The translations under genes were made by a program, and so were the position numbers. A stretch of 64,000 nt of DNA, taken from contig OU744448.1 of the NCBI GenBank assembly GCA_916610825.1, forward strand, positions 18,661,936 to 18,725,935, read 5' to 3'. Source of the DNA: Haliclystus octoradiatus (taxonomy: Eukaryota; Cnidaria; Staurozoa; Stauromedusae; Haliclystidae). This document shows, piece after piece, positions 5,101 to 19,567 of the stretch (positions are counted from its first letter, which is position 1; every line of letters begins with the position of its first letter). The notes under the pieces are model-generated. The model had not been told where the DNA came from, ran no database searches, and worked only from the letters and a program-made list of their open reading frames with translations.

Positions 5101-8100
5101 CAAACTTTCCGAACCCCACGCTCGAATTTTGTCAATTTGGTATCAAAGTCACATATATACTGTAGATCACAATCATCACAATTTCTCAGCCTGTTAAACA
5201 TTTACTAATGCAGTACTTTTCTCTTGAGTAGCTATGTAAATTAATTTCAAAAAAAGTGTCAAACTACATCCGCCCATCTACAAAATCTCTCGTTGTTTTT
5301 TTTAGTCGAAATTTGGATCACAATCATCTCAAATTGCTCAGCTACAGCTAATTTGCTCACGCTTCATTTCACTATATTTTAGTCACATGGGCATTTGGCA
5401 CCGGATTTGGCAATGTTTATATTTTACTGATCCCTATTTATCTGTTTATATAATCTTCCAATGCAGATTCATTTGTAATTTGCATATTCGAAGTATTGCA
5501 TTTTCCTTTGTTATCAAGGTAGATTACTTTGATGGACGACATTCAAATGTATGATATAATTATTTGTAATCCGTTGTTTCAGGGGAGATGTACATGGTGG
5601 TCACCAAAAAAAGCATATACTAATGAAGAAGAAGAAGAGGAAGAGGACGACAATGAAGACGAGGACGAAGATGAAGCAGATGAACCAGAACCAGAAAGTG
5701 GTCCGTCATTACTTACACCTCTCTCCGAAGATAATGGTAAGTACCCTATACTTGTATATTACATATCTATATATATATATTATCTAATAGCAAAAAATAG
5801 TGCTCGATATCATTTGACAGAGCTAATTAATTAGTTAGTTTATTTTTCTGATGATTGCGTAAGCATGAAACTATTAGTAACATTTATGAATGTGTAGTCT
5901 TTGACTCCTCTAATAATATATATATACTAGCAATGAGTGTAGTCCATAATGGACCTTCTATGATAAAACTTTCAGATCACTTATAATTAAACAATTGACT
6001 AAGCTGACTATCGCTGTATAATACGGAGTATGAACTCTGGAGGAGAACATGAGACACAATACGCATTGAAACGATGTAGCATTAATCAATACATCTTAAT
6101 CATTCCTTTAATAAAAGTTTAATTTATTTCACATCAATTGAGTCGATTGAAATGTATAATTTAACGTAGCTTTGTCTACATAGAAAAGCTTTATTTTATG
6201 TGTTGAAAGGAAGCCAGAACACATTAATTATTATAAATTACAAATACTCAGTCAAATTTCGAAATCTGAAACTATCCATAAAAAATCACTTCAAATCCGA
6301 TCCGATCCGAAGACCTATAATATTAACCCGAATCTGACCCGACACGATCGGATCGCGTTCGGTTCGAATTCATAAATCTTTATTGCAATATATACAACAC
6401 TAATGTGGTGTTCACAAAATAACGCCGTCAAGGTGTGGTCGATAAAACTCGTGGCATTGCATGCAATATATTCAATATTGAATTGATTTAGCTTTGACAA
6501 GACACATTGTCCACTAATTTCTGTTATTAACATGATCAAACGATATCTATTGTTAATTAACAATGATTTACTGCTTCATATTAAAAAAAAATCAGAAAAA
6601 TCGTTGATAAAAATTGCCGAATGGCGGATTTGGACTGACGACCCTGATATTGTAATACCAGGGCATTAACCAATCGGCCACTACCTTATTTTTTGTTATC
6701 GGTGTTTTAACTGAAGTGGTCAACAAACCTACTGCTTCGACAACGTATTATTGAACAAGGCCGACCCACGCGCGTGTATTGAAAATCAAATTATACATAT
6801 AATCTGAAAATATTATGATATGATAGTATATGAGCCTATATATTTTTGATCTTTGCAATCTCAGCAAGCAGGCCTGTGATTTTCATGGCAGTCTATCAAA
6901 ATATCAAGAGTTCGTTGAAAATAAAATTTTGTAAGTAGAAAAAAGATGTGAAAAATTGGCCTGATAGTGCTTCTTGTTATCAAATTTTCCAGAATAATAG
7001 CATCAACATTCTTTTAAAAGGAAATAAAGTTCTATAATAAATCGCTATACTAATTTGATATTGTATTGATATCATGTTACATCTTGTTGTCAATATTTCT
7101 ACGCGCTATTTATAATACATTACAGAATGTCGAATGAAAGAAAAGACGATGATGAATAAATTAATTATTTTGATAGAAAAACGAAAACAACTCATTTTGC
7201 CAGATTCGTGATATGCATATTTATTCAGAATTTATTGAAACGGACGCGATGGTTTATAGAGTGGAAATGTTTAGTGCAGCTTCAAAGATATAAAATACCA
7301 TAGCCGATGGTAGTATTTAAATGCTCATGTTATGATGTCTGACGGAAAGCATTGAGTACTCTCATTGATGTTTTGCCTCACACATTTATAATTATATATA
7401 TATATGCTGCTATGTATGTCTCAATTGTGCATGCGCGCAATTTTGAGCACTATCGACTTGGGATGTGTCTATACTATTTGCGATATGCATTGCCCACTAC
7501 TTCGGTAGTTTGAGCACTCTGGTATGGCACAGATGTTTTTTTCATGTGATGAATTTTTTCACCACATTTATAACTCATCTTGACTTAGGTTATATACTGA
7601 AGTCAGTTCCTTGTTCGCTCACTGAGCAGTACTGATGAAGGCTAATGGCCAGAAACATGTACTTGTCTGCTGCTATGTATGTCTCAATTGTGCATGCGCG
7701 CAATTTTGAGCACTATCGACTTGGGATGTGTCTATACTATTTGCGATATGCATTGCCCACTACTTCGGTAGTTTGAGCACTCTGGATGTTTTTTTCATGT
7801 GATGAATTTTTTCACCACATTTATAACTCATCTTGACTTAGGTTATATACTGAAGTCAGTTCCTTGTTCGCTCACTGAGCAGTACTGATGAAGGCTAATG
7901 GCCAGAAACATGTACTTGTCTGCTGCTAATTATATATATATATATATGTATTAGATATTATCTAATAGCAAAAAATAGTGCTCGATATCATTTGACAGAG
8001 CTAAATATATTAAAAGAAGTCAAAGACTACACATTCATAATTGTTACTAATAGTTTCATGCTTACGCAATCATCAGACAAATAAACTAATTAATGAACAG

Positions 8101-11100
8101 AACAAAGGATTTTGATGCTCCATTCAATTTTGTAGTTTTTTTTCCTATCTTTTAGTCTCCAAATGTATTTCGAAAGTTGTGTGCTGTTAATATATTTTCT
8201 GTGTTTGAATGACATCATATGCTGAGCGTATCTTTGTTTGAAGGTTCCCTCCGTCAAACCGATGTAATTTTGACCTTCCTGATCTTCTGTCGTAGTAACT
8301 TTTGCCTTGTAAACGAGGCTTTCTGTGAGGCAATCATTGTTAAATGGGCAAGGCCGTTTTACCCTACAGTTGCATTGTTTAGTACAAGCCTGCTGATTTT
8401 TCTTTTCTCTGTTAATTATTTCGTTGTTATGGTTGGTTATAATGGTCTTCATGTTTGAGGTGCAGCTGTAGCTAACTTTAACAGTGTTGGCGTTGAATAT
8501 TTTGCTTAACTCGTTCGACTTTGGAAAGTGTTTTTTAATAAGGTTTAGAAATGTTTGGCCGATGTTTGTTCTGACACTTTTATTATAGGGTGGATTAAAC
8601 CATGTGATATTTCTGCGCCTGTTTCGCTTGTTCCTGGTAATTGGTCGTTCGTGTCTTGGTTGATAGGCAAAATTTGTGTCGTGGCCACTTTCAATAAGGG
8701 CGTTCTCATAGCTGATTTTAGTATTTTCGAAAATAGTGTTGTTGGATGACTCAGATGTTCTTTGATTAATGGCGATAGGTATGTGTTTTAGGATTGTTGG
8801 TGGATGGTTAGACTTGATGTTGATGTATAGTGGGTCGTCGTTAGGTTTCCGATATGGTTGAAAGGTGCCATTTTGTAGGTTGAAATTGACATCCAAATAA
8901 TCGACATATTTCAAGTTGCATTTAGTTGTAATCTTTAGGCCACTCTCTTTAAATAGTTTTATTAATTTTTTCTTAAGCCTCTCTGCTTGTGGGCCGGATT
9001 TATTCTTCAAGACTGCAAGGCTATCGTCTCTGTACAGGCCAATGTACTCCTTCCCAAAAATTTTCCCAAGTTTATCAAGAATATAAAGTCCTACTAGCTC
9101 GCAAACTTCGGTCCCATCGTAACTGCCCATTGTTACATAGAAAAGGCTATCATTACATTTCTTTGTCCATGCTGCTCCTTTGCTAAATAAGACTGATTTC
9201 CTGGCGTGCATTATGATTCTAATGTCTTTTTCCGATATCGGTGTGAACTTTCTGGCGTAATCGATTGCTTTTTTCAATAGAGTTTCCGATATTGTCAGAT
9301 AGAAATTTTCTATGTCAAAAACCATAAATGATAATTTTTGCTTGTCCCTTAAATTCTTGAACCAATTAATAACAGAAAAGGAGTTCTTCCATTGGTTTAA
9401 TTTTGTAGTTGTCTTTACATTAATGATAATTTTCTCTAGCAGCTTCTTGCTAACAATCCCGATTTCGCTTTTTGCTGGATTAATTAGTCGACATGATGGG
9501 TTGTTTTGAAAGTTTTCTTTGTGATCTTTCAGCGTTATGAACGCTGGTTTCTGTGCAATGCTTTCCGCTCTCTTGTCGATTTTTAACTCTTTGCTTATCT
9601 GCTTGGCCTCTGTATTAATTTCGTTGACTGTGTTACTGTTTGCCTTTTTATAAGTTGTTGTTACGTTGTTGTGTAGTAATTTCTCGTGTTGATTAATTTC
9701 TAATTCATAAAAATTTCTTGATTTATCAGCGGCTATAAAAGTCTTCGAAGAATGCTTTATTTTGTTTATATCCTGTTTATGTTGGCGCTGGAGTTGGTCG
9801 TCTACTTTCCTGAATTCTATATGTTGGGTCATTTTCATAAGGTGTAATTCAAATTCCTCTAATTCGTTAATCTGTGGTGGGCAATTTCTTGATTTAAATC
9901 CAAATTTATCTTCAGTAGTTACGTTGTTAATATCTTGATCTGTTTCTTTATTTAAGTAGAAAAACGCTCTCCATCGCTCTCCATCAAAATCCTTTGTTCT
10001 GTTAAACAATATGTCACGAAAATAAATATTACCTGTCCAATTTTAATAATTCAAAAACATAACAAATAATCATTTAATTTACTGAGAATAAAGGAAACCA
10101 TCACATTTTTCTACCACTTGTATCAACAATAGCAATAACAATAGCATTGTATTAATTAAACAATAGAAAGCAGCATTACGGAGAGTTTATCATAGAACGT
10201 AGATATCATGTATATTTTTCATTGAGTAAAAAATCTGTCTGAAGATCGCAGTGAAAAGCGTGAAACTTGAGTAACAGTAAAGAATGTGTATTCTTTGACT
10301 CTTTCGCCATATATTATTATTATTATATATATATGGGATTACTCTGGAAAACGAGTTTTATTTGGAGATGGATTCCAATTTTAGATTATTAATTTCCATT
10401 CCATAATTGTTTTGCAGAGGTTAATGGGATGGCAGCCTGGACAGTTTCTAAAACGAGCTCACTTCTTCCCCAGTATGCCATTGCAGCATTGCATTCAAAC
10501 CAATGGCCTGGAGCACATGCTTTTGCTATTGATAGGTAATTATTGAGTTAATAATAGAGAATGTTGGGTCAGTACTGGCCCTGCTGTGATAAATGATTAA
10601 GGACCAAGGCTACCGAGAAACGTTTCCACCTATAGGAATAATTGCAAATATTGCCCTGACAACAAATGTTTGTGCTCTGTTGCAATTTTTCTAACATATT
10701 AGCAATCAAAATCAATTGAAGACTCAAAATGTAGCAGAAAAACAGTGTGGTTCCTAATACTTGTTCAGTAGACTGGTCCAAAAAAAATGATTAAGTTTGA
10801 AAGTTGAGTTGCATTCTTGATTTTACTGTTCTTCAAAGTGCAAGTCAAATTTTAAGTGCAGAATTTGAGTTCAAAAAATATTGGGAAATGGGCGCTCAAT
10901 GCCTCTCCAAATTAATGCACAAAGTCAATGGAGAAAACGCTTCAAAGTTAAAAAAATATATATAATATCGGTAAAGTAATTTTGAATAATTTTTATGTCT
11001 GTAAGGGTAACAATCTCAGAAATATTATGTAATAATATGTGTTTCGAAGTGATGCATTTAAATGTATAGCTTCCACTGTGATGTTGACAAATCATACAAG

Positions 11101-14100
11101 TGTGTGGTTTTCTGTTCTGTGAAGGTGTTGATAGATGTTAATTTCAATTTACTATGATTTTTCAAAGAATTGTTGGCAACTGTTAGTAATAAAAAAGTAA
11201 TATGGACAGTGGTTTTTGTGCATTTTTGTTGGGAAATATGAGCCAAAGTTCAAGAAAAACTAAATCTGTCAACACCTTTCCATTTCACACCTATTTTTAG
11301 TTTTATAGAGAACCACACACTTCTATAATCTGTCAAAATCACAGTGGAAGCCATACATTCAAATGCATCACCTTGAAACACAGTTTTTCAGTATTAGGCC
11401 GTGGGCCGAACTAAGAATCGTTCGAAAAGGCTAGACACTTGTCGAGGACAAGGTTTGAGGTCAAGATATTCAATTATATACAGTTAGCAATGTTTTGTTA
11501 AATTTTCGCAAGTTTTCACTCACCAGTTCAGTATTTAATTTTGTTGTTAATATCGCCAATTTTATGCCAATTTTTGTAGCCATTATGTCAAGTTCAACTG
11601 AATGTTTTCGAAGGCGCAATTTATTTTGCCTCGCTTTCATGAGCACAATGCACCTGATTGGCTGTTGTCCGTTGACAACAGAATGCGTTGGTAGCAACAT
11701 AATGGTGCAGCGATCGTTAATATCCTAGATTTCGCAATAAAGAACGTTTTCATTTTAGAATGGCAAGCGTTTAAATTAATTTTTCGAGTTAAAATGATAG
11801 TTACTGGTCATGGAAACTGATAATAGTAGTAAAGAGCCTTTAAATTGTGTATGTTTGGTTCATTTTGAGAGTTTTACTGGAAAATTATGCTCTTTCACAG
11901 CCAAAAGATTTTCTACTTTTTTATCACGTCGGGACGAGTGGCTAAATTTTGCTAACATCCAAAGCTCCATTGACAAAAATTCATTAGATTTTTGCAAAGG
12001 GACACCAGAGGATTTATTAAATTGTGAAAAATATTTTTATCATGAAAGATGCTACCAGCGGTTTACTGATAAAACAGAATTAATCCGAGCAAATAAACGT
12101 CAAAATTCAACGAAAGTGTCACAGAGCAATGAATCTCAATCAGAATTTTCAGAGAACTTTAGCAGCAAATCAGAATTTGTCCCTGCTAAGGTCACAAGGT
12201 CAGCTAGCTCATTTTCTCTTGTTGGAAAGGGAAGGAATCCACATGTGCTACCAAAAATCTGCATAATTTGCAAAAAAAAGTATTCTTATTATAATTGTAA
12301 GGTAAGATTTATCAACAAATCGTTATGAAAAACATCACTTTGTATAACGTCTTGTGAATACACCTATACTAAATTATTTCTCCTGGATCGTATATAGGTC
12401 AATTTTAAGACAACAATGGATCCTCTTCATCAGGCAACTTCCAAAGAAGGGGGTACACTAAGGGAAGCAGCCGACATTAAGAAAGATGAAAGTATTCTGC
12501 ATTACGTTATGGTTGGAGATTTTGTTTCCAACGAAGTGCATTACCATCAACGATGTTACAACAACTACGTCCGTTTCTTGTACCCAGTAAAGTCTGCCAA
12601 AAATGAGCAATCCAAAGCGGACACGCCCAAGAACACAAGACTGTACGAAGCTTCATATAAAATTTTTGTAGATAATGTGATTAAAGTTAAAATTTTGAAT
12701 TTGCATGAAACCTATACAATGAAAACGTTATTCTCAATCTTCGTCGAAACCGTTGATCAAGTCGAGAACCTTGATGCGAAAAATTACAATAGGTCTCGGT
12801 TCAAACACAAGTTAGTTGTAGATTTTCCAGAGTTGAAATTCTTCACGCCGAACAATAAAAGTAAAAGTGAAATTGTTTACTATGAAGATATTGATCCAGG
12901 ACCAATTTTAGAAAAAAAAATGGAAACTGAAAGACTGTTGGAAGAAGACATCGACATCTCTCTAGAGGATGAGGATCAGGTGATGGACGATGATACGCTA
13001 CAACAAATGCAAAACGAAGAGGTGTCAATACTTTACAAAGCAGCATTAATCATACGCGGCAGTTTAGAGTCCGTAGAGAACTTTGCTAATGTATGGCCAC
13101 CAACCTCCGTTGATATAAATAATGATGTCGCCAAAACCTTTATTCCACCAGAGCTATATAACTTCCTATATATGCTCCTGAATAAGTCAATGAACGATGA
13201 ATTAAAAGAAAATGACGTTAGTCTTGAGAGAAAAATAATGGCAGTCGCCCAAGATATAATATTTATCTATCATCGTGGAAGAAAAATCACCCCCAAATCT
13301 GTTGCTTTGAGCATGGCTGTAAGGCAGATAGCTGGTTGCTCAAGTATAATTGATATTCTGAACGGCTTCGGTCACTGTATTTCCCATTCATCCACTTTAA
13401 GGTAACATCATGATCCTTTTTACTGCTGTATAGAAATGTTTTTGAGACAAGTTTATGTTAAATATTCACTCCTGTGGTTTATCCGATAGGTATGAAACTG
13501 ACCTGGCCAAGATAAGTATGTGCAATGGTGTCCCGAAGCAATTACACCCTGGTTGTCATACTATGCTCGTTTTTGATAACGATGATTTTGGCGAAGAAGT
13601 CAAGCAGGCAACTCATATTACTAATGGAATTGCCATTCAACCTGTAACTTCAGTTTCAATTGCTGCTGATTCTGTTAGTAGAGTGTCCATAAAAAAGTCT
13701 AGACGTAAAACTCTGCAATACCAAGAACCCCAGATATTGCCGTATTGCATTACCAAAAAAGCTTCACCAGATTTTTCCGGTAATAAATTAGTAGATGTAA
13801 CGTTAAATAGTATTGATTTACAGCTGCCAAAACAAAAATTGGATTTTGCATATTCCGTTATGAAAAAGATCAAAGGCAATGAATTACCAGATTGGACGGG
13901 CTTTAATACTCTTTTAGATTCTTCAGACATCGCTGTACTTTCGAAAGTTACTTACCTTCCCGTTATTCCTGCCTCTCCTACAGAATATTTAACAGTTTAT
14001 ACCATACTAATAAAATGCCTAGAAATTCAGAAGTATCTAGGACTACCTTCTATTCCTGTTGTATTTGATGAGGCCATCTATGCCAAGGCGCAGCAAATTC

Positions 14101-17100
14101 GTTGGGAAAACAAGGAATTTCAAGAAAATTTAGTACTTCGTCTTGGTGAATTCCATACCGCAATGTCGTTTTGTGGTGCTATAGGAAAGCTATTCCGATA
14201 TGCAGGATTGCAGGTAATTGTTTTAGTATAGTCTAGCTCAATGCTCGTACCTAGATTAATAGTAAATATAATGACATTCTAAAGTTCTTTCAAATTGTGA
14301 CTTTCAGGATATTCTAGTTGAAGCAGGCATTGCGGGGCAGGAGTCAGTCAACGGTGTTTTAAGTGGAAAATTTTATAATGGAAGTGTCCGTTGCCATAAA
14401 GTGATGCACGAAGCACTTGAAAGATTACGATTTGAAACATTCTTAGACCACTGTGAAGAGTCTGTTGTTTCAAAATTCAGCGAACAAATTAGTCAGCTAT
14501 CATATGCATTTCCAAGTGATCAATTTTCCAAATGTTTAGAGAGCGAGGATTTTAATTTTATTTGGGATCATTACATGAAATTCGTAGAAAAAAGCAACGA
14601 TGAATGTCCGACGTTTGCGCTATGGTCCTCTTATATTAAAGTTACTGGTAAGAATTGATTTTCGGAGCAATTATCAATTGTCTGTAATTTCACTGTTGTA
14701 ATAACTATCGCATTCTTCGTTGAAATCAGGTCTGCTGATGACGTTTATCAGAGCAACTCGTCAAAATAACTGGGATTTACACGTATCGTCTTTACGATCT
14801 ATGCTTCCGTGGCTCTTTGTGGCAGATAGAGTTCATTACTCTCGTTATTGCTCTGCGTATTATCTCGAAATGATTTCGTTGGAAAGCTCTCATCCAGGTA
14901 TATACATTATCCAACATTTCAAAAAGTATTAAATAAAATAGTGTTCGCAAATATTTATATAGGTGTAAATATATACTGAATAAATCGTTATCAATTTTTT
15001 GATAGAGACATATTCAGCACTCAAAAAACAATGGACTGTCCAGCGACAGGATAAATATGGCTTTTCTTCCGTTGCCTGTGACCAAACAATTGAACAAACA
15101 GCGAACAGAGATTCAAAAACTAAAGGTGGTGTTATTGGTTTTACTCTCAATAAAGGAGCTGTTCATCGTTGGCTTCTCGCACAACCTGAAAGATCCTCTA
15201 TTATGAATCAATGTCAATTGATGGCTGGTATCAATTTAGAGACAAGGTACCAGTCGCGTTCATTTTGTATGATAGTATAAAGTATATTATTGAGCTGAAC
15301 TAATATTTTTGTTTTGGATTTAATAAGGAAACGGAAGAACCTTGATAAACCGCAACGCCAGAGGCATGAAAAGGATGTACAAAGTGTTCTTTCCACCCTA
15401 AATTCAATGGTCAACCCATTTGATATTTCTGAAAAATCTGTTATTCAGCTTTCTAGTGGTATTGTTGGCCCAGAAGATGTGAAGAACGGTCTATTAAAAG
15501 CAGAAGAAACCGGAGAAAATCTATTTGTGAAATTTGCTAAAGAAAACTTACTCGGTGATTCCCCAGATTTGTTTGCGACATTAAAGAAAGTGCAGCTTCA
15601 TACCTTTACCACATGCGCGAAAACTTTCAAATTGACAACTTCGAAAGGACAGGTGATATCCTTGAAATCTTCTAGGAATCTCTGCGCTCGACTGCTTCTG
15701 CTTGCCCGCTCGCAAGAAATTGATCTAAAAATCGTTCTATCGTATTCCCTTGATATGGTCCCACTCAGTTTATCCACTATCGAAGGTTGTATGACGAAAA
15801 CGAACAAGTCAAAGCTTCTACATATCTTAGAAGGTATTTTTAACCTTTCACAATTGAAACAAAAGTCAAACTCTTATTATACATCTTAACCATTATTTTC
15901 AATTTACATATTTAGGTCTATCATCTAATTGTCGTGTCACTACTGTACCAGAAAATTGTGCATTAATGGTTGACGCAATGGCTATATTACAGAAATTGAG
16001 CAACATTCCCAGTACATTTGGTGGTATTGCAGCCACTGTTATTTCAAAACTAAAATCCCAAGCATATTTGTATGGTGCCAAAAGAGTCGATTTTGTTGCC
16101 GATACTTATCCATTGATGAGCATAAAAGCAACTGCAAGGGACCGTCGAGCTGCCAAAGGCGCAACCATTATAAAAATATACTCTTGTGAACAAAAAAGTC
16201 CTGTTCAGTGGGCAAAGTATTTACGCCATAGATATAATAAGGAAGCTTTAATAGACTTCATTTTTAATACTTGGAGTAAAATAGACCCCAAAGATTTACC
16301 ATTCCATTTATACTGTACAGTTGGTACTGAATGCATGAAAATCAACCCTCAACACTCTGAAACTGTTGTAACAACAGTCCCGGAACTATTTTCCGATCAT
16401 GAAGAAGCCGATACCAGACTCTTACTACATGCAAACCATGCATCTGAAGCAGGGTACGAAAACGTTATCATTGCCAGTCCTGATACAGATGTTCTCGTAC
16501 TAATGACTGAGAAGCAATCAGAAATGAAGACCAACCTGTATTTTTCTACTGGATCTCGAGACCAGGCTAGAATATTGAATGTTAAACACATCTCAGACTT
16601 TTTGAACAATCATATCCGTAAGAGTTTGATTGGTTTTCATTCATTCACAGGTATGTATTCTAATACATATATATTACTTCTAATGAAAAAACGACTGCAG
16701 GGCTACCAAGAAAGATGCTCAAATAGGCGAACATTTTTTGAAAGGGCGTTTTCAAAAGGCTCACTCTTCTAAGCGTCCATAGTTGATTTTATACTTCGTG
16801 AACATTAGCAGGCTGCCATAATTAATAGATATCGAATAATTCCACAAGGAAGAAACAGCAATAGAGTGAAGCAAGCATTAATGTTCATATTGAAATGTCA
16901 TATTCAGCTGTGTACGTCCTGAAATGCCTGTTTCAATGTCATTCCAGGTTGCGATTCTGTTAGTTCATTTTTTGGCAAAGGTAAAGAAACTTGCTGGAAA
17001 TTGCTTAACACCTCAAAACGAACAGAAATATTTCAAACACTTGGACGTGCTAACAAGCTAACTGAACAGCTTTTGAAAGATTTCGAGATATTTATTTGTT

Positions 17101-19567
17101 CCCTTTATGGCCAACATGGAACCATCAGTGTAAATTGTGCACGCTTTAATGCATTCAAAAGTGGAACATTTTCCAGTGAGTCCCTTCCCCCGAATGAAGA
17201 TTGCCTCCGTAAACATTTGCTACGCGCCAATTACCAAGCCTATATTTGGAAAAATTGTTTGAAACAGAAAATTATCGCTCCCAATCCAATCGGAAATGGT
17301 TGGCTAGATAAAAACAATACCTTAAAAATAGATTGGATGGACAAAAAACCTATACCTGATGAGCTTCTAGAAACAGTGAACTGCGGATGCAAAAGTGGCT
17401 GTACAACAAACAGATGTTCTTGCCAAAAATCAGGCCAAAAATGTAATGAATTCTGTAAATGTAAAGGTTGCAAAAATTCTGAAATGAATTCTCTAGTTGA
17501 TCCAGACGAACCCATAGAAAAAGAAAACGATAATCAAAATACCTACTGCCCCGATGATTTGGAATCTAGTGACGACGATTACGAAGTTGATAATTTTTAA
17601 CACCGTTATGTTATATAAATCACGTTATAAATTATGAATTATTATTTATTCCATTTTTGTAACCATTTGATTTGATAAATATTCATAGTTTAGTATATTT
17701 ACTCAGTTTTCAACAATGCAATTATAATCATATTAACTTTAATCGAATTAATATATGTTAACACATTAACACGTTAATTTGAAAATGTTTCGTTGTTGTT
17801 CATGTTGGCCCCATTATGTTGCTACCAACGCATTCTGTTGTCAACGGACAACAATTCTGTTGTCAACGGACAACAGCCAATCAGGTGCATTGTGCTCATG
17901 AAAGCGAGGCAAAATAAATTGCGCCTTCGAAAACATTCAGTTGAACTTGACATAATGGCTACAAAAATTGGCATAAAATTGGCGATATTAACAACAAAAT
18001 TAAATACTGAACTGGTGAGTGAAAACTTGCGAAAATTTAACAAAACATTGCTAACTGTATATAATTGAATATCTTGACCTCAAACCTTGTCCTCGACAAG
18101 TGTCTAGCCTTTTCACGCTTTCTGGCGTTTATTGCTTTTTGGCCCACGGTATACAACTTCTCATGCAATAGACTTTTATAGGCAACAGTAATATTTCTGG
18201 GATTGCTACCTCTACAGACATAAAAAATTATTGAAAATACTTTACTGATTTTTAATTATATTTTTTTGAAGTCTTGAAGCGTTTTCCCCATTGACTTTGT
18301 GTATTAATTTGAAGGGGCATTGAGCGCCAATTTCCCAATATTTTTTTGAGCTCAAATTTTTCACTTATGATTGTTTTACCCACTAGAAAAATAAAATCGA
18401 GAATGCAATTCAACTTTCAACCTTTCATTTTTTCGGACGAGTCTATTGTTAAGGCTCCGTGGCAATTCAATTTCCCCCTTGCTCCACCATCTCTAGATCT
18501 GTGATCCTGCTAATCTAAAAGGTTGGGAAACGGCGGCAATTTATTGTTAAGATTCTTATCTATACTACTAGCAATAAGTCAACCGGTTGCTGTGTTAATT
18601 TAAATAACAGATATAAAAAATAGGAAATGTGTGAGCCCCTAAGCTTGCAGCACTCACGCATTTGAAAGAGTTTATTTGACTTTATAGGTCAGTCATTATT
18701 AACGGTGGGGAAAGGCGCAGGCTAAGTTTCCGAAAATCTTGAACATTTCAAACTCCATGTAATCTCTTACATACTGCGATTCCAAAATATATTTTTTTAT
18801 AACAAAGCATAACTGTGTTTGATATACCTGGGGATTTCTGCCTGCCCGTACAGAAGATTTTCAGGACGTTGTGAATTCGGTGGATCACAAAACCCAGAGC
18901 CATCTATTTACAAGAGTTGGGACACGCTTTCATGTGCCGCTATCGTCTCCTATTGGATAGATGCCATTCACGTGATTTTTTGGACGCCATTTTCGTACTT
19001 TCGGCACCAGAGTTCTTGTTCTTTTGGCACCAGGTTTCCTGTTTTAAGCGAAGCGCGCGGAAACATGGTGAAACTAGTTAACAAATTTCGAGTTGTATAA
19101 GGTAGACACGCAAGTAAGCGCACTGGAACGTGGTTTCTCTTTCGCGCGTATAAAGCTGAATATTGACGTACTTCATGATATTTTTGTAAAATAGACTTAA
19201 TAAAATCGGCAGAATAAGTGCAGAAGTGTTTTTCATAAGAAACCCCATTCAGCTTACGTTGGACAGCTAGTATAATGCAACCCTTCTAGTCGGGGTTTCG
19301 TGATGTTGTGCTTTTCTATATTATGTTTACTGTTTCGTTTGCAGTAAACATGAATGCATCTATATTGGCTTTGGTTTGAAGTATAGCCATGATAATTACA
19401 GTCCTCCTGCTCCTCCAACAACTCAAGAAGAATATCCAATAGGCCCGGATGTAGCAGAGATCGAAGATCCTACTGTAGAAGAAGAACGAGCATTACAGGC
19501 TGCACAGCAGGAAGCATTAGAAGCAGAAGAGGAAGAAGAAGAAAGTGACGAAGGAGAAGATGATTAG
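2138..19567 (+). CDS. RSPH4A: Radial spoke head protein 4/6 homologue (RSPH4A/RSPH6A), nine 3' exons
   Basis: Component of the radial spoke head in motile cilia and flagella, which passes signals between the central pair and outer-doublet dyneins. Exons: 2138-2238, 2580-2622, 2732-2869, 3452-3549, 4052-4193, 4841-4950, 5583-5736, 10418-10535 and 19345-19567 (TAG stop). Every junction has AG/GT sites and the phases join, giving 374 full codons plus a partial first codon. Family hallmarks occur in the usual order: [121 protein letters not shown] and an acidic tail. The human orthologue is about 716 aa, so the N-terminal half lies upstream of the window. Vertebrates have two paralogues (RSPH4A and RSPH6A); which one cannot be decided here. 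Introns 7 and 8 (4.7 and 8.8 kb) hold mobile elements. Confidence 0.95.
5781..5824 (+). repeat. 44-bp direct repeat, copy 1 (copy 2 near 7956-8003)
   Basis: The stretch from TATCTAATAGC to GACAGAGCTA just inside RSPH intron 7 recurs in the same orientation near 7956-8003, next to the 3' end of the antisense Penelope-like element. The two copies bracket about 2.1 kb that includes a hammerhead-like motif and the retrozyme. It could be a target-site duplication or the result of a local duplication when the element inserted. Confidence 0.75.
5838..5910 (+). ncRNA. Hammerhead-like motif, copy 1 (Penelope-associated)
   Basis: CTGATGA at 5848-5854, a short hairpin (TGC/GCA around GTAA), GAAA at 5867-5870, then ACTA pairing with TAGT and ending in C at 5899. 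This is the conserved box order of a hammerhead core, with stems II and III visible. Stem I is poor here and the first pair of stem II is U-U, so self-cleavage is doubtful for this copy. The same ~70-bp motif recurs at 8015-8085, 10229-10303 and 50236-50312, usually next to TA-rich DNA. Confidence 0.5.
5930..7390. other. Non-coding part of RSPH intron 7, with a weak tRNA-like segment
   Basis: AT-rich DNA with no gene seen. On the minus strand, about 6690-6610 resembles a tRNA head: GTGGCCGATTGGTTAATGCC looks like a D-arm/A-box and is followed by a strong hairpin, but the B-box is degenerate. It may be a decayed tRNA-derived SINE. Elsewhere in the stretch I see nothing. Confidence 0.4.
7625..7674 (+). 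ncRNA. Hammerhead ribozyme, retrozyme monomer 1
   Basis: Stem I: AGCAGTA (7625-7631) pairs with TGCTGCT (7668-7674), seven pairs including one G-U. Core CTGATGA at 7632-7638. Stem II is GGC/GCC around TAATG, closed next to the core by an A-A mismatch. GAAA is at 7652-7655. Short stem III is ACA/TGT, and the cleavage triplet GTC is at 7665-7667, so the cut falls between 7667 and 7668. Open stem I with a very short stem III is the type I form reported in animal retrozymes. The A-A mismatch next to the core may lower activity. Confidence 0.82.
7878..7927 (+). ncRNA. Hammerhead ribozyme, retrozyme monomer 2
   Basis: Same fold as in monomer 1: AGCAGTA at 7878-7884, CTGATGA at 7885-7891, GTC ending at 7920, and TGCTGCT at 7921-7927 completing stem I. 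The predicted cut is between 7920 and 7921, where the second monomer ends. Confidence 0.82.
8015..8085 (-). ncRNA. Hammerhead-like motif, copy 2, just downstream of the Penelope ORF
   Basis: On the minus strand: CTGATGA (8076-8070), a TGC/GCA hairpin, GAAAC, ACTA...TAGT and C at 8025. It lies directly 3' of the Penelope-like reading frame and in the same orientation, the place expected for the terminal repeat of such an element. Stem I is weak. Nearly identical to copy 1. Confidence 0.5.
8090..10009 (-). CDS. Penelope-like element: reverse transcriptase + GIY-YIG endonuclease
   Basis: One open frame of 639 aa, antisense to the host gene inside RSPH intron 7. From about residue 160: [29 protein letters not shown] (first catalytic Asp region), [15 protein letters not shown], and GLYRDDSL, the catalytic YxDD-type motif. 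The C-terminal third has a Cys cluster (CNCRVKRPC...C) followed by [16 protein letters not shown], a GIY-YIG nuclease start. Such elements make DNA by target-primed reverse transcription. There is no internal stop or frameshift. The C-terminus ends soon after the IEWSI segment and lacks about 45-50 residues present in the copy at 46.1-46.8 kb, so it is probably 3'-truncated. The true start may lie upstream. Confidence 0.88.
   Translation of the reverse strand: MFNRTKDFDGERWRAFFYLNKETDQDINNVTTEDKFGFKSRNCPPQINELEEFELHLMKMTQHIEFRKVDDQLQRQHKQDINKIKHSSKTFIAADKSRNFYELEINQHEKLLHNNVTTTYKKANSNTVNEINTEAKQISKELKIDKRAESIAQKPAFITLKDHKENFQNNPSCRLINPAKSEIGIVSKKLLEKIIINVKTTTKLNQWKNSFSVINWFKNLRDKQKLSFMVFDIENFYLTISETLLKKAIDYARKFTPISEKDIRIIMHARKSVLFSKGAAWTKKCNDSLFYVTMGSYDGTEVCELVGLYILDKLGKIFGKEYIGLYRDDSLAVLKNKSGPQAERLKKKLIKLFKESGLKITTKCNLKYVDYLDVNFNLQNGTFQPYRKPNDDPLYINIKSNHPPTILKHIPIAINQRTSESSNNTIFENTKISYENALIESGHDTNFAYQPRHERPITRNKRNRRRNITWFNPPYNKSVRTNIGQTFLNLIKKHFPKSNELSKIFNANTVKVSYSCTSNMKTIITNHNNEIINREKKNQQACTKQCNCRVKRPCPFNNDCLTESLVYKAKVTTTEDQEGQNYIGLTEGTFKQRYAQHMMSFKHRKYINSTQLSKYIWRLKDRKKNYKIEWSIKILCSVH
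10229..10303 (+). ncRNA. Hammerhead-like motif, copy 3 (decayed core)
   Basis: CTGAAGA in place of CTGATGA at 10239-10245, then a short hairpin, GAAAC at 10262 and TTCTTTGAC in place of GTCTTTGAC. Because both essential boxes carry changes, this copy should be inactive. It lies beyond the 5' side of the antisense Penelope element and in opposite orientation to copy 2, so the element is bracketed by inverted copies. Confidence 0.5.
10769..11710 (+). repeat. Left terminal inverted repeat of the CXC transposon
   Basis: Pairs with 17807-18445. The inner part (about 11440-11705) is nearly identical to the right arm. The outer part (10769-11038) is recognisable but diverged, for example GGGAAATGGGCGCTCAATGC against GGGAAATTGGCGCTCAATGC on the other arm. 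The CCGTGGGCC block at about 11399 is matched on the right at 18141. Confidence 0.85.
11039..11382. mobile_element. Palindromic MITE inserted in the left TIR
   Basis: A 344-bp foldback whose ends are 44-bp inverted repeats with about four mismatches: GTGTTTCGAAGTGATGCATT on the left against GTGTTTCAAGGTGATGCATT on the complementary strand at the right. It is absent from the right arm of the host transposon, so it arrived after that element was formed. Confidence 0.8.
11810..17600 (+). CDS. Transposon-encoded FEN1/XPG-like nuclease with CXC domain
   Basis: Nine exons: 11810-12301, 12398-13401, 13490-14213, 14308-14647, 14730-14897, 15006-15246, 15328-15833, 15916-16650, 16948-17600. All splice sites are AG/GT, all phases join, and the total of 4,863 nt is 1,620 codons plus stop with no break. 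N-terminus: two Cys/His clusters, each ending in a HxxCY motif (YHERCY in exon 1, YHQRCY in exon 2). Exons 8-9 carry the acidic residues of FEN1 in order: MVDAMA (Asp ~1178), FVADTY (Asp ~1221, followed by basic KATARDRR), [12 protein letters not shown] (Glu ~1322, Asp ~1324), [10 protein letters not shown] (Asp ~1348 and ~1350), and [14 protein letters not shown] (Asp ~1406 plus a helix-hairpin-like segment). These match human FEN1 D34, D86, E158/E160, D179/D181 and D233. A TSO1/tesmin-type CXC cluster follows (~1549-1579), then an acidic tail. Nuclease activity and a transposase role are inferred. Confidence 0.85.
17807..18445 (-). repeat. Right terminal inverted repeat of the CXC transposon
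   Basis: Mirror of the left arm without the MITE. Its inner end carries a short tandem duplication (ATTCTGTTGTCAACGGACAAC twice at 17832-17873) absent from the left arm. Open frames of about 75 aa occur in both arms only because the arms match. Confidence 0.85.
18446..19344. other. Remainder of RSPH intron 8
   Basis: Unique-looking AT-rich intron DNA between the right TIR and the last RSPH exon. No gene or clear repeat was seen. Confidence 0.6.

Follow-up and report, generated by a model that had tools for sequence, protein, structure and literature searches.

A probable AcademX-type transposon of Haliclystus octoradiatus with a candidate DDE transposase fused to a FEN-type nuclease and with unequally spaced ends

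The window, a 64,000-nucleotide stretch of the Haliclystus octoradiatus genome, contains an element that, judging from its sequence, is very probably an autonomous cut-and-paste transposon that was active recently and belongs to AcademX, a lineage within the Academ superfamily. One spliced gene would yield a single protein comprising N-terminal Cys/His clusters, a candidate DDE core (D528, D692 and E939), a FEN/5′-nuclease and a C-terminal CXC-like cluster. The new feature reported here is a 9–10-bp difference in spacing between the two ends of AcademX-type elements. The coordinates of the window element, its gene and its host repeat are given in Table 1.

The borders of the element were defined by comparison with other copies in the genome searched for copies and relatives (262 Mb, 33 contigs). 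A 30-base piece of the inner repeat occurs ten times in this genome, as five inward-facing pairs ~6.4–6.7 kb apart. Copies L009–L012 carry TAGGCCGTGGGCC at both ends and are flanked by perfect 3-bp duplications (TAA, GTG, ACA and GTA, respectively), and 5′-TAG termini with 3-bp target duplications are thus found in all four copies with both ends intact. The right end of the window copy, GGCCCACGGTA, is two bases shorter than that of the other copies. A reading of TA as a 2-bp duplication (ends TA/GGCC) is excluded by the TAG...CTA termini and 3-bp duplications of the four complete copies.

Divergence among the copies ranges from 0.01% (L010 versus L011, 1 of 6,737) to ~1.2% (any copy versus L012), and 24 gap columns in all separate the window copy from L010 and L011. 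The reading frame is whole in four of the five near-identical copies; L012 is deleted and frameshifted. Coding differences are few overall and mostly non-synonymous (for the window copy versus L010, 22 non-synonymous and 5 synonymous codons), so the copies themselves give no indication that purifying selection has acted on them since they inserted. The window element probably moved recently.

Table 1. Positions in the window of the transposon, its ends and exons, and the repeat that hosts it
Feature	Position	Strand	Basis or remark
Complete AcademX-type element	11395..18151	+ (gene strand)	Left end TAGGCCGTGGGCC, right end GGCCCACGGTA; comparison with other copies
Left target-site duplication, TAT	11392..11394	.	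Right side 18152-18154 is TAC; imperfect in window copy
Left terminal block, TAGGCCGTGGGCC	11395..11407	+	Copy comparison
Left (short) end spacer, 16 bp	11408..11423	+	End-spacing comparison
Left inner inverted-repeat arm	11424..11684	+	100% complementary to 17854-18114
Exon 1, N-terminal Cys/His cluster	11810..12301	+	Exon joining
Exon 2	12398..13401	+	Exon joining
Exon 3, D528 and D692 (candidate DDE residues 1 and 2), GxxH (H721)	13490..14213	+	Exon joining, cross-family conservation
Exon 4	14308..14647	+	Exon joining
Exon 5	14730..14897	+	Exon joining
Exon 6, E939 (E-x3-N), candidate third catalytic residue	15006..15246	+	Exon joining, cross-family conservation
Exon 7	15328..15833	+	Exon joining
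Exon 8, FEN-type nuclease D1178, D1221, K1229, E1322, D1324, D1348, D1350	15916..16650	+	Exon joining, alignment, profile comparison
Exon 9, nuclease D1406, GKGK helix, CXC cluster, stop codon	16948..17600	+	Exon joining, conservation
CXC cluster	17382-17477	+	Position derived from exon phases
22-bp tandem duplication, inner edge of right arm, window copy	17832..17875	.	Repeat search
Right inner inverted-repeat arm, 261 bp	17854..18114	-	100% complementary to 11424-11684
Right (long) end spacer, 26 bp, exceeds left by 10 bp	18115..18140	-	End-spacing comparison
Right terminal block, shortened by 2 bp in window copy	18141..18151	-	Copy comparison
Older host repeat, left part	10769..11391	.	Genome matches, empty-site alignment
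Older host repeat, right part	18155..18445	.	Empty-site alignment

A preliminary description of this DNA had placed a transposon at 10769..18445 and taken the outer inverted repeats (10793–11027 and 18189–18424, 77–88% identity) for its ends. The transposon is borne out, but its borders lie further in, and the outer repeats belong to an older, multicopy element. Specifically, the left part of the older repeat has 131 matching stretches in the genome, with scores given for the best candidates only, and the near-full-length matches to it, the window's own excluded, are 74–82% identical, with one exception at 66%. Three loci were taken for an empty-site comparison. The joined flanks are unbroken at the insertion point against L056 (82.6%, 978 columns) and L057 (81.7%, 982 columns), and L058 likewise spans this point over 804 columns, with a gap further on. 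Because L056 and L057 carry the repeat as an uninterrupted empty site, the transposon is nested in it. The older repeat, as seen in the window, L056 and L057, is an inverted-repeat element of ~0.95 kb with many copies, and is apparently non-autonomous. Elsewhere in the window, a 650-codon open frame on the minus strand (8090–10042) bears, by eye, YRDD reverse-transcriptase-like and YIG (GIY-YIG-like) motifs, which suggests a Penelope-like element; a Pfam scan of this frame at E 0.01 gave no match.

The gene structure proposed earlier is upheld: nine exons splice together in phase to give 1,620 unbroken codons, and all eight introns have GT..AG borders. So is the FEN1/XPG-style order of acidic residues in its 3′ part (D; D with K/R; E-x-D; D-x-D; GCD with G-x-K), which is invariant or nearly so across families. 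In particular, D20, D63, K71, R75, R78, E163, E164, D166, D190 and D248 are invariant and in FEN order in an alignment of eight families (A1), and the FEN residues are kept in all ten families read apart from single exceptions: L064 has N at position 1350, L061 has R at 1414 and L044 has a gap at 1233.

Profile comparison by hhalign points the same way. The nuclease profile matches PolI-type 5′-nucleases (probability 70%, E 4e-5, score 42.9) and a mixed FEN/PolI set (E 1.2e-4, score 40.7), and gives no significant match to an archaeal FEN1 set with XPG/EXO1 pieces (E 0.11), the E-values being those of single comparisons with three template sets tried, of which the PolI-type set is small (four sequences). 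As controls, the profile was shuffled 40 times by single columns and 40 times by 8-column blocks. The highest scores were 22.2 (columns) and 27.0 (blocks) with the PolI-type set, and 24.0 (columns) and 20.0 (blocks) with the mixed set; reversing the profile gave 13.9 with the former set and 13.4 with the latter. In the alignments, EEAD falls opposite EADD, DTD opposite DKD, and GCDSxSS opposite GDSSDN. The nuclease region has no HMMER match in Pfam, and hmmsearch of its profile against the PDB returned no FEN1 and one chance-level match (E 0.37); a phage search with archaeal FEN1 and an NCBIfam search gave nothing useful. The domain thus resembles FEN1/XPG and bacterial PolI-type 5′-nucleases in the order and neighbourhood of its acidic residues and, for the PolI type, in profile homology, but differs from them in lacking a HMMER match in Pfam or the PDB and in being fused to a putative transposase.

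The cysteine cluster that follows had been called a tesmin/TSO1-type CXC domain. The cysteine pattern is confirmed in nine of the ten sequences tested (present in the window protein, L043, L044, L047, L048 and L061–L064; absent from L045; L046 was outside the test), and the Pfam TCR model stays under its curated cut-off of 23.5 bits, scoring 16.5 bits in the window protein and 10 bits in L047, with no listing for L043–L045. Taken together, the data support a predicted FEN/5′-nuclease-superfamily domain followed by a CXC-like cysteine cluster.

The absence of a DDE transposase, as first described, is probably wrong. Between residues 520 and 1000, the acidic and histidine residues D528, D531, H541, D692, H721, D886, D935 and E939 are invariant in five diverged families, and positions 528, 531, 692, 721, 935, 939 and 943 are kept in ten of the ten families read; L065 and L066, which are end fragments of family E, do not extend over these positions. 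The layout of the candidate core, D-163-D-28-H...E-x3-N, is similar to that of transposases with a C/DxxH motif as presented in the accessible parts of two accounts (PMC9587614, PMC3706591), except that the window family has GxxH instead. The same middle region is weakly similar to DUF6589, with matches in three of five families that stay under the cut-off (best E 0.0005). Of a DDE/RNase H core elsewhere in the protein, which the preliminary description had named as a finding that would refute it, what is seen is thus a conserved sequence pattern rather than a fold.

If instead the FEN-like nuclease were the only catalytic domain and itself cut the transposon ends, the element would represent a new superfamily. 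This would agree with the nuclease alone having statistically clear homology, with the lack of any Pfam DDE family over cut-off in scans of the family proteins, and with the lack of a match to a solved transposase, or to any solved structure, when the middle-region profile was searched against the PDB by HMMER. However, we consider such a superfamily very improbable, given a D-D-GxxH-E-x3-N pattern that is independent of the nuclease and kept in every family read, a resemblance to DUF6589 that recurs in the helicase-bearing relative L060, and a duplication length and domain make-up as published for AcademX in the available text of PMC10045372.

The nuclease region has at least 151 matches in the genome. 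Each of the three intronless families read has a single open frame (1,518, 1,527 and 1,542 codons, stop to stop), and other families are spliced. On the 3′ side of one intronless family, ~167-bp tandem repeats lie within ~1 kb downstream of the gene (L033–L040) and extend further in other copies than in L033. Four scans of viral_contigs gave no relatives. In genome_contigs there are two: L047, whose best segment is 42% identical, belongs to an assembly labelled as a Planctomycetota MAG, and L048 to one of a mussel symbiont (Bathymodiolus). Both are most likely animal DNA, that is, eukaryotic contamination within those assemblies. TAG termini are accompanied by 3-bp duplications in L044, L046, L062 and L064 and by a 4-bp duplication in L045, and family E has a 3-bp duplication, as read from scans that, for these families and for L060, favour pairs with matching flanks. 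For L045, several rival end pairs were equal or higher on termini, and the TAG pair, picked for its termini, was later seen in many copies.

A DUF6589 search of the genome gave matches at 55 places; 25 exceed the cut-off, one of these only when its neighbours are counted with it. Two loci, L059 and L060, were taken for study. The element at L060:521–7393 has TAG termini, a 9-bp duplication (ATTATTTCA), a DUF6589 exon (Pfam E 2.2e-23) and, on the opposite strand, a helicase (Helicase_C, 2.9e-14). L059 shares 4.3 kb with L060 at 99.9% identity and lacks its left part, so the 9-bp duplication is read in one copy. L060 resembles the window family in its TAG termini, in a common FDN-x-D motif and in an alignment around the D..E..N motif (P 0.07 and 0.004), with DUF6589 over the cut-off in L060 and weak in the window. 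It differs in having a helicase rather than a nuclease, the 9-bp duplication, and symmetric ends of ~60 bp. The comparison suggests that DUF6589 may be the transposase core of AcademH; a literature search of limited coverage found no paper with DUF6589.

The nuclease of AcademX is classed as XPG-type; a literature search of limited coverage found no paper with both Academ and XPG. According to the available text of PMC10045372, AcademX elements carry a nuclease and have 3–4-bp duplications, and AcademH elements carry a helicase and have 9–10-bp duplications; Academ is listed among the superfamilies with a DDD/E transposase in the part of PMC9587614 available to us. Two apparently related elements in this genome fit both halves of this description, and for that reason we file the window element as AcademX, by published description rather than by sequence comparison to Repbase AcademX. 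Specifically, the window family has 3-bp duplications in all four intact-ended copies, FEN/5′-nuclease homology and no helicase match, while L060 has the helicase and the long duplication. The element is therefore a new family of a known kind, and the earlier statement that no named superfamily has this architecture gives way to a published lineage.

The likeness to AcademX covers a candidate DDD/E-type transposase pattern, the nuclease and the 3–4-bp duplications (PMC10045372, PMC9587614, in part). The CXC cluster and the one-turn asymmetry of the ends go unmentioned in the portions of the published Academ text that were available. These two features, and an assignment made by description, leave some room for a sister lineage of Academ, in which transposons with TAG termini, 3–4-bp duplications and a DUF6589-like region gained their nuclease independently of AcademX. 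That the combination of a nuclease with 3–4-bp duplications is just what has been described for AcademX (PMC10045372, available text) speaks against a separate origin. We regard the sister lineage as unlikely.

Other superfamilies were compared. Pfam contains KDZ models, and Pfam scans gave no KDZ match. The window family has 3-bp duplications; Kyakuja-Dileera-Zisupton elements have a KDZ-type transposase and 7–8-bp duplications (PMC12730594, accessible part). Kolobok elements with accessory nucleases match the candidate make-up of the window element in combining a DDE transposase with an extra nuclease, but they have TTAA duplications and other nuclease folds (PMC9587614, accessible part), and are excluded by the 3-bp duplications, which are not TTAA. 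RAG/Transib, with CAC termini and a 5-bp duplication in the available text of PMC7204232, is excluded by the TAG termini and 3–4-bp duplications.

Both ends of the elements have a common terminal block followed by a common inner arm, and the distance from block to arm differs between the ends. We measured this difference as the best ungapped diagonal at 16 to 60 bp from the terminus, with the sign given by the gene's 3′ end minus its 5′ end, all measurements coming from one genome. The diagonal is +10 in the window family and L045, −10 in L044, L062 and family E, −9 in L064 and 0 in the AcademH-like L060. In L046 it is −10 but weak (score 9; the null distribution has its 95% point at 8 and its maximum at 11), and the arms further in have a shift of 9. 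The end spacing thus differs by 10 bp in six families (one weakly) and by 9 bp in one, that is, in all seven families with ends found, of 11 attempted (L061, L043, L063 and L067/L068 were left out, their ends not being found). Among copies of the window family, the shift is 10 in L009, L010 and L011 and 8 in the window copy, which is two bases short; L012 has a shift of 10 close to the terminus that becomes 39 deeper in the arm, a change that an internal deletion would produce.

The difference is reproduced within the two multicopy families. In the L044 family, the inner block lies at 28 (nine) or 38 (eight) in 17 of 17 terminal blocks, and seven of seven pairs join 28 with 38. In the L045 family, it lies at 22 (20 blocks), 32 (12) or 31 (one) in 33 of 36 terminal blocks, and the difference is 10 in nine of 11 pairs, 9 in one and 0 in one. 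The zero-difference pair, at C1:9332795, has a second right end, with a spacing of 22, at a distance of 343 bases outward, and the wrong end may therefore have been joined by the script. Across both families, the difference is exactly 10 in 16 of 18 paired copies.

These observations raise the prospect of a one-helical-turn end-pairing rule for AcademX, in which an inner block would lie ~21–30 bp from the terminus at one end and 9–10 bp further in at the other, and only unlike ends would be joined. Such a rule would parallel the RAG 12/23 rule but have a separate origin, in TAG-ended elements with a nuclease-fused DDE transposase. We hold the chances of such a rule to be evenly balanced. Alternatively, the asymmetry may be an inherited indel without function, a reading that leaves the identity of the element untouched. 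Transposition would copy an asymmetry within a family, all the families come from one genome and share common descent, and the polarity relative to the gene varies: two families, the window family and L045, have the long end on the 3′ side of the gene, and the other five have it on the 5′ side. Yet a difference of 9–10 bp recurs in both polarities and in seven of seven diverged families with ends found. The spacers look unrelated by eye between most families, in contrast to the long inner arms, which in several families are almost the same. We regard an inherited indel as less likely than not.

The ends resemble RAG signals, with spacings of 12 and 23 bp, and the asymmetric TIRs of ProtoRAG in being bipartite, with spacings about one helical turn apart (available text of PMC8289069). 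They differ in having TAG rather than CAC termini and 3–4-bp rather than 5-bp duplications (PMC7204232, available text), and because of these differences the likeness is an analogy only. A literature search, made up mostly of listings and with the key Academ paper outside its coverage, found no published report of the end asymmetry. Searches on asymmetric ends and the helical turn gave nothing on Academ by title, and those on Academ with Transib, RSS or asymmetric TIRs gave RAG papers and reviews only, within the same partial coverage.

In a plausible mechanism, the cysteine clusters and the CXC cluster would bind the bipartite ends, and one short and one long end would be brought together in a pairing that needs both types. 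The DDE core would cut the transposon ends and join them to a target with a 3-bp stagger, and the nuclease may trim 5′ flaps or the non-transferred strand left by transposition, at the ends or at the junctions. As far as we have seen, fusions of a transposase with a flap-type nuclease have been named but have received little study, and the window family, being recent and intact in four copies, is therefore a good place to test the role of the nuclease. Furthermore, the tie between DUF6589 and a helicase-bearing transposon offers a likely role for a family of unknown function. The end asymmetry would matter more than the nuclease fusion. The 12/23 rule is a well-known peculiarity of antibody-gene rearrangement; should a second lineage prove to share its one-turn difference, the mechanical reason for the rule could be probed outside the RAG family.
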